This document shows, piece after piece, positions 6,741 to 13,504 of a DNA stretch of 26,440 nucleotides; within the stretch, counting starts at the first letter, position 1; each line of letters opens with the position of its first letter. The notes under the pieces were generated by a model. The model made no database searches. It was not told the origin of the DNA and saw only the letters and a program-made list of their open reading frames with translations. The translations under genes were made by a program, and so were the position numbers. The stretch covers positions 1 to 26,440 of the IMG/VR virus record IMGVR_UViG_3300031576_000255, one strand, 5' to 3'. The stretch is from a virus.

Positions 6741-6991
6741 GGCACACCCCCGATAGCCTGCCGCCAGTACTCATACGCTGCGTCAACCTTGCTCGCCACG
6801 GCCTCGAGCCGGCGCGGCACACCGTCAAACTCGTGGATCGCTCGCAGCACCAGCGGCAACGGAACACCTCGATCCATCCAGCGGCCTACGTTGTAGAACT
6901 CGGCGGATGACATGTCACGGTGCGTCTTCGCCTTGTACTGAAAGGCGGCCCAGACGGCTCGACTATACGAGATGCGCTGCTCGGGAGTCAC
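6737..6991 (-). CDS. Hypothetical helical protein of replication operon, 84 aa
   Basis: This soluble, mostly helical protein contains SAEFYNVGRWMDRGVPLPLV and LRAIHEF, the pattern of small phage proteins that follow a DnaT/DnaD-like gene. It overlaps its neighbours by 4 bases on each side, so it probably works with the replication initiator-like protein upstream. A helicase-loader helper role is possible, but no ATPase motif is present. The family is not named with confidence. Confidence 0.7.
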   Translation of the reverse strand: MTPEQRISYSRAVWAAFQYKAKTHRDMSSAEFYNVGRWMDRGVPLPLVLRAIHEFDGVPRRLEAVASKVDAAYEYWRQAIGGVP

Positions 6992-7479
6992 CCTTCGGCC
7001 CCGGGCTCACGAACGGCCGCATCGAAGGAGTGCACTGAGCACGTCGAGCGGCCGCCAGAAGCCACGATGGCCTCGGCTCCACACCCTGGCTCGTCGCAAA
7101 TCGCGGGCGGTTTACTCGCGGCGGCCTTCTTGTTCTTCATATACTTCAACTGGCGCTCAACTGCCATTTCCTTCGATGCGAGACGGCGATATTTCGCATG
7201 CGACACGACGCGCCACGTTCCTTCCTCGGTGTGCTCAATTCTTCGCCCGTCAGCTTCTTTGTTCCTTGACCACGGATCAGGATTTGATAGAATCTCAAAA
7301 GCCTTCGCGGCGCGTTCATTGCTGATTCGCATGACGCTCGCAACGTAGGGCACGGTCAGCTTGCTTTCACCGCAGCGGTCTGCGCTTGCTATCAACAGCG
7401 CAAGGACCGCAACGACATCCGGGCCCTCTGAGAGCACGCTGCTACTCAGCAGGTTGTCATCCAAAGGATTCCAAGCCAA
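6988..7479 (-). CDS. Phage DnaT/DnaD-like winged-helix replication protein, 163 aa, TTG start
   Basis: The N-terminus (L)AWNPLDDNLLSSSVLSEG and the later PDPWSRNKEADGRRIEHTEEG and WRVVSHAKYR match a frequent phage replication-module family. Members open MA.W..LFDSI..SSVW and carry a winged-helix-like domain with an EPDPYSRSPE.GRRI signature. A zinc-finger-like tail (CDEPGC to C-S-V-H) follows. The frame also has an ATG at 7527, but the TTG at 7479 is preceded by GGAGGAGAGG and matches the family's usual beginning. I therefore infer a TTG start and 163 residues. The likely role is loading or positioning replication proteins at the phage origin. It is first in its operon. Confidence 0.75.
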   Translation of the reverse strand: MAWNPLDDNLLSSSVLSEGPDVVAVLALLIASADRCGESKLTVPYVASVMRISNERAAKAFEILSNPDPWSRNKEADGRRIEHTEEGTWRVVSHAKYRRLASKEMAVERQLKYMKNKKAAASKPPAICDEPGCGAEAIVASGGRSTCSVHSFDAAVREPGAEG

Positions 7480-7541
7480 ACGTCCTCTCCTCCACAGCAA
7501 AGAAGAAGAAAGCAAAGAGCGCGTCATCGAGCATCAACCCA

Positions 7542-7556
7542 CGTCAAGTTGTGACG
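7542..7556. promoter_or_regulatory. Palindrome CGTCA-AGTTG-TGACG
   Basis: Perfect 5-base arms lie about 10 bp downstream of the -10 box of the candidate replication promoter. This is a good place for a repressor or roadblock. It is similar to the palindrome at 2009-2023. Confidence 0.45.
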
Positions 7557-7565
7557 CCTAGCCAT

Positions 7566-7595
7566 AGTTTAGCGTCAACGAGTGATGCCTGTCAA
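7566..7595 (-). promoter_or_regulatory. Candidate promoter for the replication operon
   Basis: TTGACA (7590-7595) and TAAACT (7566-7571) on the minus strand, with an 18-bp spacer. The -10 box matches consensus at four of six bases. The position, upstream of the TTG at 7479 and downstream of the methyltransferase stop, fits. It is weaker than the other four promoters and may need an activator. Confidence 0.42.
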
Positions 7596-7645
7596 GTGTT
7601 TGTCACTGCCTGTCAGCGGATGACGGCTGCTGACGCTCGGCTGAC
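7591..7645. promoter_or_regulatory. Symmetric phased array of six GTCA/TGAC half-sites
   Basis: GTCA begins at 7591, 7602 and 7612; TGAC begins at 7621, 7631 and 7642. The three pairs share one exact centre at 7618, with neighbouring starts 9-11 bp apart, about one helical turn. The first GTCA is inside the -35 box of the candidate promoter at 7566-7595. It looks like a binding platform for an oligomeric regulator; no protein can be assigned. Confidence 0.5.
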
Positions 7646-7652
7646 GGCCGGC

Positions 7653-8717
7653 TCACGGTTCCGCCTCTGCGAACAGCGGGCCAGCGATCCGGCGCCGAGC
7701 CATCGCTACGTACTCGGAATTCAGCTCGCAGCCGATGAACCAGAAGCCCTCTGCGAGCGCCGCGATGCCGGTTGAGCCACTGCCGCAGAAGGGGTCAAGC
7801 ACGATGCCTCCTGGCGGTGTCACGAGCCGGCAGAGCCACCGCATGAGGTCCACTGGCTTCACGGTCGGGTGCGCGTTCTTGCCCGCGTAGTGGCGCTCGC
7901 CGCTTGCTGCCTTCGCGGTGTAGAAAAAGCGCGAGGCGCCACCAAGCATCACGGCGGCATCCTCGTCTAGCACCACGTTCGCGGGCCAGCGGCCGAGGTC
8001 GTCCTTCGCCTCGGTGCGCTTGCCGTTCAGGCCGTCTCCAAAAGCCGAGACCGTTGAGTGGTCAGCACCATCGCGCAAGCCGGCAAAAACGTGGCCGCCG
8101 CCGGTCCCGATCCGGCATCCGTCCACGTTGAGCACCCCCGTCCTGTGCGCGAGCACGTTCGCCGCGACGGGTCCGGCGAGCGGCTTGCGGGCGAGGATGA
8201 TCGGCTCCCACGCGGGCTTGAGGGCTGTGCCCATTCCTTGCAAGGCGGCGGCGGCGGCGGCGGTTACAGGTTCGCTGGAGTAGGTCGGCACCGAAGTCAA
8301 ACCCTTGCCGCTACGCGAGGCGTAGTCACCGCCGCGCATGTCGTTCATGCGCCGATGGCCGACGGGCTTGGTACGCTGTCCTGCCGCTCGATCTACGGCC
8401 TTGCTCACGTCAAGCGACTTCGGGAAACCTGAGCCGTAGAGCCAGCACAGACAGTCGCGGATCTCCCAGCCTGCATCCTCCATAGCGCAAGTAAGCCGGT
8501 GATAAGTGCGCGTCCCGCCAAAGGCGAGTAGATGCGCGCCGGGCTTCGCAACGCGCAACGCCTCGACCCAGAACGGCTCTCCCGGCACGCCGTGATCCCA
8601 TTCCTTGCCCATGAACGCGAGGCCATAGGGCGGGTCAGTCACGATGGCGTCCACGCTCGCCGGCTCCATGGCAGCCATCAACTCCCGGCAATCGCCCTGC
8701 CGGATGTCAGGCTTCAC
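7653..8717 (-). CDS. Orphan DNA methyltransferase (beta-class amino-methylase), 354 aa
   Basis: DPPY (motif IV) is at about residues 28-31 and the SAM-binding DPFCGSGST (motif I) at about 309-317, so the order is that of beta-class N4-cytosine or N6-adenine methyltransferases. The 270 residues between hold the target-recognition region, including a run of six Ala coded by a (GCG)n repeat. Family-typical GLAFMGKEWD and NAHPTVKPVDLM segments are present. The start is taken as the GTG at 8717 (MKPDIRQGDC), as the frame has no start codon between there and the previous gene's stop at 8767. No restriction enzyme is adjacent, so it probably protects phage DNA from host restriction or marks it. The target base is not predictable here. 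Confidence 0.9.
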   Translation of the reverse strand: MKPDIRQGDCRELMAAMEPASVDAIVTDPPYGLAFMGKEWDHGVPGEPFWVEALRVAKPGAHLLAFGGTRTYHRLTCAMEDAGWEIRDCLCWLYGSGFPKSLDVSKAVDRAAGQRTKPVGHRRMNDMRGGDYASRSGKGLTSVPTYSSEPVTAAAAAALQGMGTALKPAWEPIILARKPLAGPVAANVLAHRTGVLNVDGCRIGTGGGHVFAGLRDGADHSTVSAFGDGLNGKRTEAKDDLGRWPANVVLDEDAAVMLGGASRFFYTAKAASGERHYAGKNAHPTVKPVDLMRWLCRLVTPPGGIVLDPFCGSGSTGIAALAEGFWFIGCELNSEYVAMARRRIAGPLFAEAEP

Positions 8718-8766
8718 GGCCGGCCTGCCTGGACTTGGCGCTGCTGCCGCGCACGCGGACGGGAGA

Positions 8767-9141
8767 TCATGCGGGCGGCTCCCCCAAGACGTACATGGCA
8801 TGATGCTCGATACGCTTTGCCACGATACGGTGCCCCTCCCGCCGGAGCTCGGCTAGGCGACTGCTGAAACCGGACCCACCAATCATCATCAGCTCAAACG
8901 TCGGAGTCGGTCCCATTTTCAGACGGGCCAGGATCGCCGCACGCTGCCCCTGACGATAGTTCTCCTGTGCCGAGGCGGTCGGCGTCCACTCCAGCCTGGG
9001 CGTCAGTGTGGCCTCGTACAATCGATCAGAAGGCCCCTGCACGCCCGCCTCTGCCCACGGACTCTCCTGCGACGGCTCACGGGCCGCCAAGGCGTCCTGC
9101 GGCTCTCTAGGAGCGGAAGTCCGGATTCTGGACTGGTTCAC
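8767..9141 (-). CDS. Phage HTH-domain protein, 124 aa, GTG start
   Basis: The C-terminal half, AAILARLKMGPTPTFELMMI plus GGSGFSSRLAELRREGHRIV, is the compact winged-HTH of small phage proteins with a T..EL..IGG..F..RI.ELR..GH.I pattern. The N-terminal half is polar and likely disordered. GGAGGAG lies five bases before the GTG at 9141, which overlaps the previous stop (GTGA). It probably binds DNA or a replication partner. A regulatory role is possible, but proteins of this family usually sit in early operons without known function. Confidence 0.72.
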   Translation of the reverse strand: MNQSRIRTSAPREPQDALAAREPSQESPWAEAGVQGPSDRLYEATLTPRLEWTPTASAQENYRQGQRAAILARLKMGPTPTFELMMIGGSGFSSRLAELRREGHRIVAKRIEHHAMYVLGEPPA

Positions 9142-9514: not shown

Positions 9515-9606
9515 CGTCGCCTCTCCTCCCACAGCAGCAGCACCGTGGCCCCTACCCCAAGCACCAAGGCGACAAGCTTCAACGCCAGCAGCGTCACCTC
9601 AGTCAT
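9511..9606 (-). CDS. Single-pass membrane micro-protein, 31 aa
   Basis: The frame begins MTEVTLLALKLVALVLGVGA, followed by TVLLLWEERRR: one long hydrophobic helix with a basic cytoplasmic end. ATGA overlaps on both sides couple it to the NinB-like gene and the 58-residue gene. Its RBS-containing 3' end (GGAGGAGAGG) also serves the next gene. It has no known family. Confidence 0.55.
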   Translation of the reverse strand: MTEVTLLALKLVALVLGVGATVLLLWEERRR

Positions 9607-10016
9607 GCCGGCTCCGGCAGCACAACCACCATACCTAGCAGCTTGCCCGTCGCGCAGCCCTCCTTGATCCAGTCCATGTACTTGCTAAACTGCTCCTGCT
9701 CCACCACCGTCGAAGGCTCGTCCTCGAACAGCTTGTCCCCCATCAGCACGTACTGTGGCTCGAGCACCCCGACCCTGACAGCCTCGCGCTTCAAGGCCAG
9801 GTGAATCGTCTCGGGATCGTTCCCCGTCTCCGCTGCGATGGCCCCGTAGATCCCGGACCAGAGGAACCGGTTGCTGTTCGAGCTCCGAATCCTCGGGGCC
9901 GGGTCACGGTGGATCTCTACCCACGCTTCCTTGCCGCGCCAGCGACGTAGCCGCTCCCCGGCATACACCGGGATCAGGAGCAGATCGTCCGTGACTCGGC
10001 AGAGGAAGCGGGCCAT
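9603..10016 (-). CDS. NinB-like recombination protein (tentative), 137 aa
   Basis: The RSSNSNRFLWSGIYGAIAAE segment resembles the RSxxQNRxxW motif of NinB/ORF-type phage recombination proteins. The later ETIHLALKREAV, STVVEQEQFSKYMDWIKEG and a Pro-rich end follow the same order as in that family. Lambda NinB (Orf) binds ssDNA and SSB and helps RecA-like loading. The neighbouring ssDNA-binding-like gene (10417-10887) fits a recombination or replication-fork role. Similarity is read by eye and moderate. Confidence 0.6.
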   Translation of the reverse strand: MARFLCRVTDDLLLIPVYAGERLRRWRGKEAWVEIHRDPAPRIRSSNSNRFLWSGIYGAIAAETGNDPETIHLALKREAVRVGVLEPQYVLMGDKLFEDEPSTVVEQEQFSKYMDWIKEGCATGKLLGMVVVLPEPA

Positions 10017-13232: not shown

Positions 13233-13261
13233 AATCTAGCGCCATATGACGGATTTGTCAA
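13233..13261 (-). promoter_or_regulatory. Leftward early promoter
   Basis: Minus strand TTGACA (13256-13261), 17 bp, TAGATT (13233-13238). The -10 box equals the lambda PRM -10 hexamer TAGATT. The predicted +1 is 13226, the A of an ATG. It should drive the early operon down to 7653, and an operator overlaps the -35 box. Confidence 0.65.
13247..13260. promoter_or_regulatory. Putative repressor operator
   Basis: TGACG-GATT-TGTCA on the plus strand covers the -35 box and upper spacer of the leftward promoter. Its centre is 25 bp from the centre of the operator at 13272. That spacing would let two repressor dimers contact each other, as in lambda OR. Confidence 0.65.
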
Positions 13262-13270
13262 CAGGAGATG

Positions 13271-13299
13271 TTGACGTATCCGTCACGGCAGCGTATCAT
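13271..13299 (+). promoter_or_regulatory. Rightward repressor promoter, leaderless
   Basis: TTGACG (13271-13276), 17 bp, TATCAT (13294-13299). The predicted +1 is 13306 or 13307, at the ATG of the XRE-type gene. This is the layout of lambda PRM, whose cI message is leaderless. The operator at 13272-13285 overlaps its -35 box, which would give autorepression. Confidence 0.68.
13272..13285. promoter_or_regulatory. Putative repressor operator (perfect arms)
   Basis: TGACG-TATC-CGTCA: 5-base arms on a 4-base centre. Minus-strand reading of the 13247 site gives TTGACAAATCCGTCA, and this site with its leading T reads TTGACGTATCCGTCA, identical at 13 of 15 bases. Confidence 0.68.
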
Positions 13300-13306
13300 G
13301 TATTCG

Positions 13307-13504
13307 ATGGCACAGAATTTCCTCGGATTGGTCCACTCGGCAGGTTACACCCTGACTTCCTTGGGGAAAACCCTGGACCTGGACCGCTCCTATCTGTCGA
13401 ATGTGGGGGCCGGCCGTAGGCCGCTCAAGCTGGCTAGGGCCATCAAGATCGCCAAGGCACTCAAGACTAGTCCGGAGGCGCTTCTGCGGGCCGTGACGCG
13501 ATGA
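13307..13504 (+). CDS. XRE/Cro-type HTH repressor, 65 aa
   Basis: A single five-helix HTH domain fills the protein. TLTSLGKTLDLDRSYLSNVG is the helix-turn-helix, with GRRPLKLARAIKIAKALKTS after it. The length matches lambda Cro (66 aa). It is a DNA-binding homodimer by family, and the two flanking palindromes are the likely operators. The ATG at 13307 coincides with the predicted +1 of the promoter, so the mRNA is leaderless; the upstream ATG at 13298 is inside the -10 box and 13268 is before the promoter. It has no CI-type cleavage domain, so SOS-type induction cannot be read from this gene. Its 3' end overlaps the converging virion operon by 38 bp. Confidence 0.85.
   Translation: MAQNFLGLVHSAGYTLTSLGKTLDLDRSYLSNVGAGRRPLKLARAIKIAKALKTSPEALLRAVTR

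Follow-up and report, generated by a model that had tools for sequence, protein, structure and literature searches.

Helically phased GTCA/TGAC half-sites upstream of a putative winged-helix gene form a candidate protein-binding array in a phage with a P22-type coat protein

Introduction

Apl of coliphage 186 binds cooperatively to direct repeats, which are spaced at 10-11 bp and located between pR and pL (PMC7498355). We here analyzed an array of six GTCA/TGAC tetramers in a 26,440-bp stretch of viral DNA (positions 1-26,440 of IMG/VR record IMGVR_UViG_3300031576_000255; this whole stretch is termed the window), which had been noticed from the letters and open reading frames of the stretch (hereafter the sequence-only reading). 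The start-to-start steps of the array, 11-10-9-10-11 bp, are like the one-helix-turn site spacing in the arrays of Apl and of the excisionase type (lambda Xis and P2 Cox), in which a small phage protein cooperatively occupies repeats that lie between promoters or across them.

Results

Phasing and repeat structure of the array

The array occupies positions 7591-7645 without strand assignment and is non-coding. All of the six tetramers were verified, GTCA at 7591, 7602, and 7612 and TGAC at 7621, 7631, and 7642, being 9-11 bp apart with three copies in one orientation followed by three in the other. As the sequence-only reading had it, the order and spacing of the tetramers are mirror-symmetric about 7618, which was the best mirror centre within 7581-7656 (19/37 pairs). 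The window contains 143 GTCA and 90 TGAC (233 in 26,440 bp), giving an expectation of approximately 0.46 per 55 bp, in agreement with the earlier estimate of approximately 0.4. Four further copies lie close by at 7523, 7543, 7552, and 7574, which the sequence-only reading had missed.

Six copies of this word within 55 bp were found in 1 of 300 shuffled windows. On the other hand, some tetramer attained six in 242 of the 300, and thus the density by itself is weak evidence once the choice of tetramer is left free. CGAC, CCGA, and CAAC reach seven per 55 bp elsewhere in the real window, inside repeats. The phasing is a rarer feature than the density. Arrays of six sites of any tetramer in any orientation with steps of 9-11 bp appeared in 5 of 1,500 simulated windows, those with the ordered orientation (or its reverse) in a single window, and those with the exact mirror spacing in none (0/1,500); as the latter two figures were obtained after the fact, the fair figure is approximately 0.3% per window.

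The symmetry claimed for the array holds for the tetramers but not for the bases between them. Only 6 of 23 mirror pairs matched outside the tetramers, and 3,048 of 5,000 shuffles were equally good, whereas at a lag of 21 bp the spacer bases matched at 17 of 26 positions, as good a match being found in 1 of 5,000 shuffles. TGCCTGTCA occurs at both 7586 and 7607, and CGGATGACGGC at 7617 is followed 21 bp on by CGGCTGACGGC at 7638. By self-comparison, positions 7586-7648 (plus strand) comprise three diverged 21-bp units starting at 7586, 7607, and 7628, each bearing two half-sites. The left half of the second unit is common with the first (TGCCTGTCA) and the right half with the third (CGGMTGACGGC), and both of the outer half-sites are near-copies of the inner ones 21 bp away. 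Self-matches of comparable length at lags of 17-25 number approximately ten in the whole window, so that two together in 63 bp are noteworthy, albeit neither is singly. As the spacers repeat at 21 bp without mirror symmetry, a direct, helically phased array is favored.

The genes and the promoter-like site flanking the array

The array fills the intergenic gap between two genes that both read leftwards. The upstream gene (7653-8717, minus strand) encodes a DNA N6/N4 methyltransferase according to family matches; its start is likely a GTG near 8717, and it ends with the stop at 7653, 7 bp from the array. The downstream gene (minus strand) was first listed as 6988-7527. A strong ribosome-binding site, GGAGGAGAGGA, lies ahead of a TTG at 7479, and this site and the homologue alignment suggest that 7479 is the true start (6988-7479). 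With this start, the gap measures approximately 170 bp. The G+C content is somewhat lower over 7400-7650 (0.535-0.54), and no GC-skew switch was found at the array site.

A single promoter-like site was detected in the gap, TTGACA-18-TAAACT at 7566-7595 (minus strand; by consensus match only), reading towards the downstream gene. The sequence-only reading placed the array as abutting a promoter. Such a site is indeed present, but the two overlap, as the half-site at 7591 sits within the -35 hexamer TTGACA (7595-7590, minus strand). A terminator of the methyltransferase gene was considered and rejected, as no intrinsic terminator (a G+C stem with a T run) was found at 7591-7645.

The designation of the downstream gene as part of a "replication operon" was not borne out. 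No confident match was found for this gene in the family libraries, and its homologue in the best relative (G002; see below) hit a DnaD-like family only at an E-value of 0.19. The predicted structure comprises a winged-helix domain and a long helix (mean pLDDT of 73), for which Foldseek gave no match at an E-value of 0.001 or better. The best VIA match was to a CO-sensor DNA-binding domain (Z of 8.0, rmsd of 2.4 A, 69 residues), the VIA rows being generic winged helices. Altogether, the prediction for the product is that of a generic winged-helix protein.

A conserved core in a single relative

No near-identical or close sequenced phage was found in the collection searched, and P22-type coat proteins from various phages share 30-36% identity with the coat protein. 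The best relative, found via the coat protein (87% identity), is G002 (IMG/VR 3300031576_000188; 36,985 bp), which is collinear with most of the window. A 40-bp core of the array (7601-7640, minus strand) is 95% identical to positions C1:33369-33408 of G002, where it reads CGAGCGTCAGCAGCCATCATCCGCTGACGGGCAGTGACA (aligned to 7640-7601 of the window with an E-value of 4e-11). The DNA flanking the core in G002 gave no confident alignment to the window. There, the core lies between a different methyltransferase and the homologue of the downstream gene, the protein of which shares approximately 30-33% identity with that of the window.

The core spans four half-site positions. In G002, the half-sites at 7602, 7612, and 7631 are intact, that at 7621 carries a change from GTCA to ATCA (minus strand), and both outer half-sites are absent. 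Of the two core substitutions, one alters a half-site, and thus the half-sites are not preferentially conserved. The 40-bp core is therefore conserved but the six-site symmetric array is not; we regard the core as the older element and, within the genomes examined, the two outer half-sites as particular to this phage. The identical promoter scan gave no match in G002. The sequence-only reading expected relatives that keep the flanking genes to keep the half-site spacing as well; this expectation failed in part, as G002 keeps the downstream gene beside a different methyltransferase together with three of the six half-sites. Directly after the core, G002 has a 10-bp inverted repeat (GGATGCTTGG / CCGAGCATCC; L098:14910-14936), the place of which is taken in the window by the outer half-site and the promoter-like site.

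A second conserved island (8713-8769, 89% identity to G002) flanks the methyltransferase cassette on its opposite side. Both phages have a conserved short reading frame before the methyltransferase region (MISRPRARQQRQVQAGRP at 8713-8770 of the window, minus strand; MTRPRARQQRQVQVSRP at L098:14054-14106), the stop codon of which overlaps a GTG start (GTGA) and couples it to the start of the next gene in the window as well as in G002. This frame is likely a translationally coupled leader peptide. Separately, the NinB-like protein of the window (9603-10016) is 96% identical to that of G002 amid neighboring genes that are much more diverged, which suggests a recent exchange or a strong constraint.

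Neither a coding nor an RNA explanation of the core is likely. G002 has a small open reading frame of approximately 39 amino acids, whose GTG overlaps the methyltransferase stop and whose end falls inside the core. The matching frame in the window lacks a start codon, so that conservation by way of a shared protein is improbable, and the small frame was rejected because no frame with a start is shared by the two phages. Folding was weakly better than in shuffles (z of -0.9 to -1.9), and these weak scores and the lack of a T run count against an RNA structure.

In IMG/VR excluding the record itself, a search for the exact six sites, with the outer gaps left variable, gave zero matches, and the only viral contig matched by a scan with the core pattern was G002; no core was found in the GTDB genomes. 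A single-sequence query retrieved no relatives of the downstream gene, while a two-sequence alignment query retrieved 13 loci including G002. No similar array was found upstream of the homologues at these 13 loci outside G002. Thus, the search for the same array in related phages yielded the 40-bp core in G002 but the full array in none of those examined; all six copies together are seen in this phage only. Among other relatives, G009 (L082) is partly collinear and has neither neighbor of the array, and G016 (L002) has the methyltransferase followed by overlapping genes with zero gap. A distant homologue of gene 6988 is preceded by a promoter region rich in GTCA/TGAC but of another layout (L105:2900-2990), including TGACTGGGTTGTCA, which resembles the operators of this phage described below.

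The phage repressor and its operators

The window encodes an HTH_3 protein (13298-13504, plus strand; family match), which is 85% identical in G002 and for which no relative was confirmed in the GTDB genomes. This protein is the candidate repressor for TGAC-N6-GTCA operators, which bear A/T-rich flanks and lie outside the array: TGACGGATTTGTCA (13247-13260), TGACGTATCCGTCA (13272-13285), and TGACAAAACTGTCA (1496-1509), none with an assigned strand. The HTH_3 gene adjoins the operators at 13247 and 13272, and operators of the same kind are found in G002 at 388, 28500, 28525, and 28664. Each operator overlaps, as judged by eye, the -35 element of a promoter-like sequence. From position and sequence, we infer the HTH_3 protein as the binder of these operators. 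At two distant loci of the window, 13247-13285 and 1450-1520, the operators sit in the -35 elements of divergent promoter-like sites, and the one at 1496 is faced by a degenerate copy at approximately 1456 (TGACAGAATCGCCA, minus strand). A third operator of G002 (TGACAGAACCGTCA; L098:10164-10177, record position 28664) stands in front of a small gene.

No 14-bp TGAC-N6-GTCA palindrome was found within 7591-7645. When half-site flanks were scored by a position matrix against all genomic TGACs, the array fell at percentiles of 0.25-0.79 and the operators at 0.88-1.0, the latter being in-sample as the matrix was built from those operators. The operator arrangement is absent and the flanks of the array score like those of random genomic TGACs; therefore, the phage repressor is an unlikely binder of the array. 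The suspicion of a binder other than the repressor is thus supported. The contrast drawn with the 14-bp repressor sites stands for orientation but not for spacing, as start-to-start steps of 10 bp are present in both.

Discussion

The array is probably a genuine protein-docking site, as approximately 40 bases are nearly unchanged in one relative with diverged flanking DNA. We tentatively propose, at somewhat less than an even chance, that it is a candidate site for cooperative and helically phased protein binding that controls the promoter of the downstream gene. Half-sites with the core TGAC-R, approximately 10.5 bp apart and in a repeating unit of 21 bp, would constitute a non-coding cis-element, and a DNA-binding protein other than the HTH_3 repressor would bind them cooperatively along one helix face. 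As the gap holds a single promoter-like site and the last half-site forms its -35 box, the occupied array would be expected to repress the winged-helix gene (6988-7479), or to activate it from the upstream sites. The most natural candidate for the binder would be the winged-helix product itself (autoregulation). Protein binding, cooperativity, and regulation of this promoter are all what we infer here. We count in favor of such a binding array the rarity of the phasing, the spacer match at lag 21, the core kept between diverged neighbors, the absence of a shared frame, the overlap with the -35 hexamer, and the winged-helix neighbor. Against it, we count that only one relative has the core, with three half-sites kept and no preference for half-site bases, that G002 has no promoter-like match, that no array was found at the distant homologues and none of the same spacing elsewhere in IMG/VR, and that approximately ten self-matches of the 21-bp type exist in the window.

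Some of these points can be read otherwise. The core may be a remnant at a module boundary, namely a short homology that recombination, and not protein binding, has preserved where an exchangeable methyltransferase cassette ends, with the extra half-sites added by chance or local duplication. The cassette of G002 differs, with the two islands at 7601-7640 (95%) and 8713-8769 (89%) on its two sides, and both of the outer half-sites look like copies shifted by 21 bp. Nevertheless, we regard this origin as unlikely, as it leaves the phasing of 10-11 bp and the ordered orientation unexplained and the island at 8713-8769 has an explanation of its own in the GTGA-coupled frame of both phages. Chance would take the phased TGAC words as noticed post hoc, coinciding with a -35 box and with a conserved 40-bp stretch unrelated to them. 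The commonness of six copies of any tetramer in 55 bp, the lack of the full layout in G002, and the tetramer-free bases devoid of mirror symmetry are in line with this, but phased six-site arrays are rare for any word and the 21-bp periodicity of the spacers is independent of the tetramers, which makes pure coincidence a rather unlikely account.

The remaining readings assign the array another function. It is improbable that the units are iteron-like repeats of a replication origin bound by the adjacent winged-helix product as an initiator. Units of approximately 21 bp directly upstream of the predicted winged-helix gene and the lowered G+C content would fit an origin, but the gene has no confident replication family, the skew does not switch at the site, and G002 has a reduced array while the other homologues have none upstream. 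We give a similarly small probability to the dyad order, three half-sites facing three, marking a nucleation site from which a cooperatively binding phage protein, other than the lysogeny repressor, would spread bidirectionally to silence or activate the adjacent gene. An auxiliary operator of the HTH_3 repressor, with the same half-site rearranged, would account for the core tetramer shared with 13247, 13272, 1496, and the G002 counterparts, the purine after all six copies, and the 10-bp steps in both; without TGAC-N6-GTCA and with flanks within the genomic background, it seems very improbable. Least credible is that the element acts not as a DNA site but as an RNA hairpin (GTCAGC-N11-GCTGAC) or a very short reading frame. 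The 6-bp stem is kept in G002 and a 17-codon frame is open in the window from a GTG overlapping the methyltransferase stop, but the folding is weak, no T run follows, and the two phages share no frame with a start.

If bound, the array would give this little-studied group of phages, which have a coat protein of the P22 type, a second layer of control apart from the repressor circuit. If not bound, it would illustrate how an operator array can be mimicked by a shared core together with local duplication. The core pinpoints 40 bp worth footprinting.

As for known systems, the sites of Apl are all direct repeats, whereas the present array has three sites one way and three the other and is not head-to-tail; we do not claim its membership in the Apl-type arrays. 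An excisionase role is not indicated, because neither a tyrosine integrase nor a serine recombinase (PF00589 or PF07508) was matched in the window (G000), the record of which is a fragment, or in G002. Half-sites overlapping the -35 elements of promoter-like sites are shared with the operators of the cI/Cro type, but the array differs from the latter in having no TGAC-N6-GTCA palindrome and no A/T-rich flanks. The units of approximately 21 bp beside a putative winged-helix gene are akin to plasmid and phage iterons, which have repeats of approximately 17-22 bp next to the gene of the initiator, although those of the array are strongly diverged and not conserved with the gene. Altogether, the array is not categorically new; should a protein bind it, operators with one-turn spacing would gain a mirror-ordered variant.
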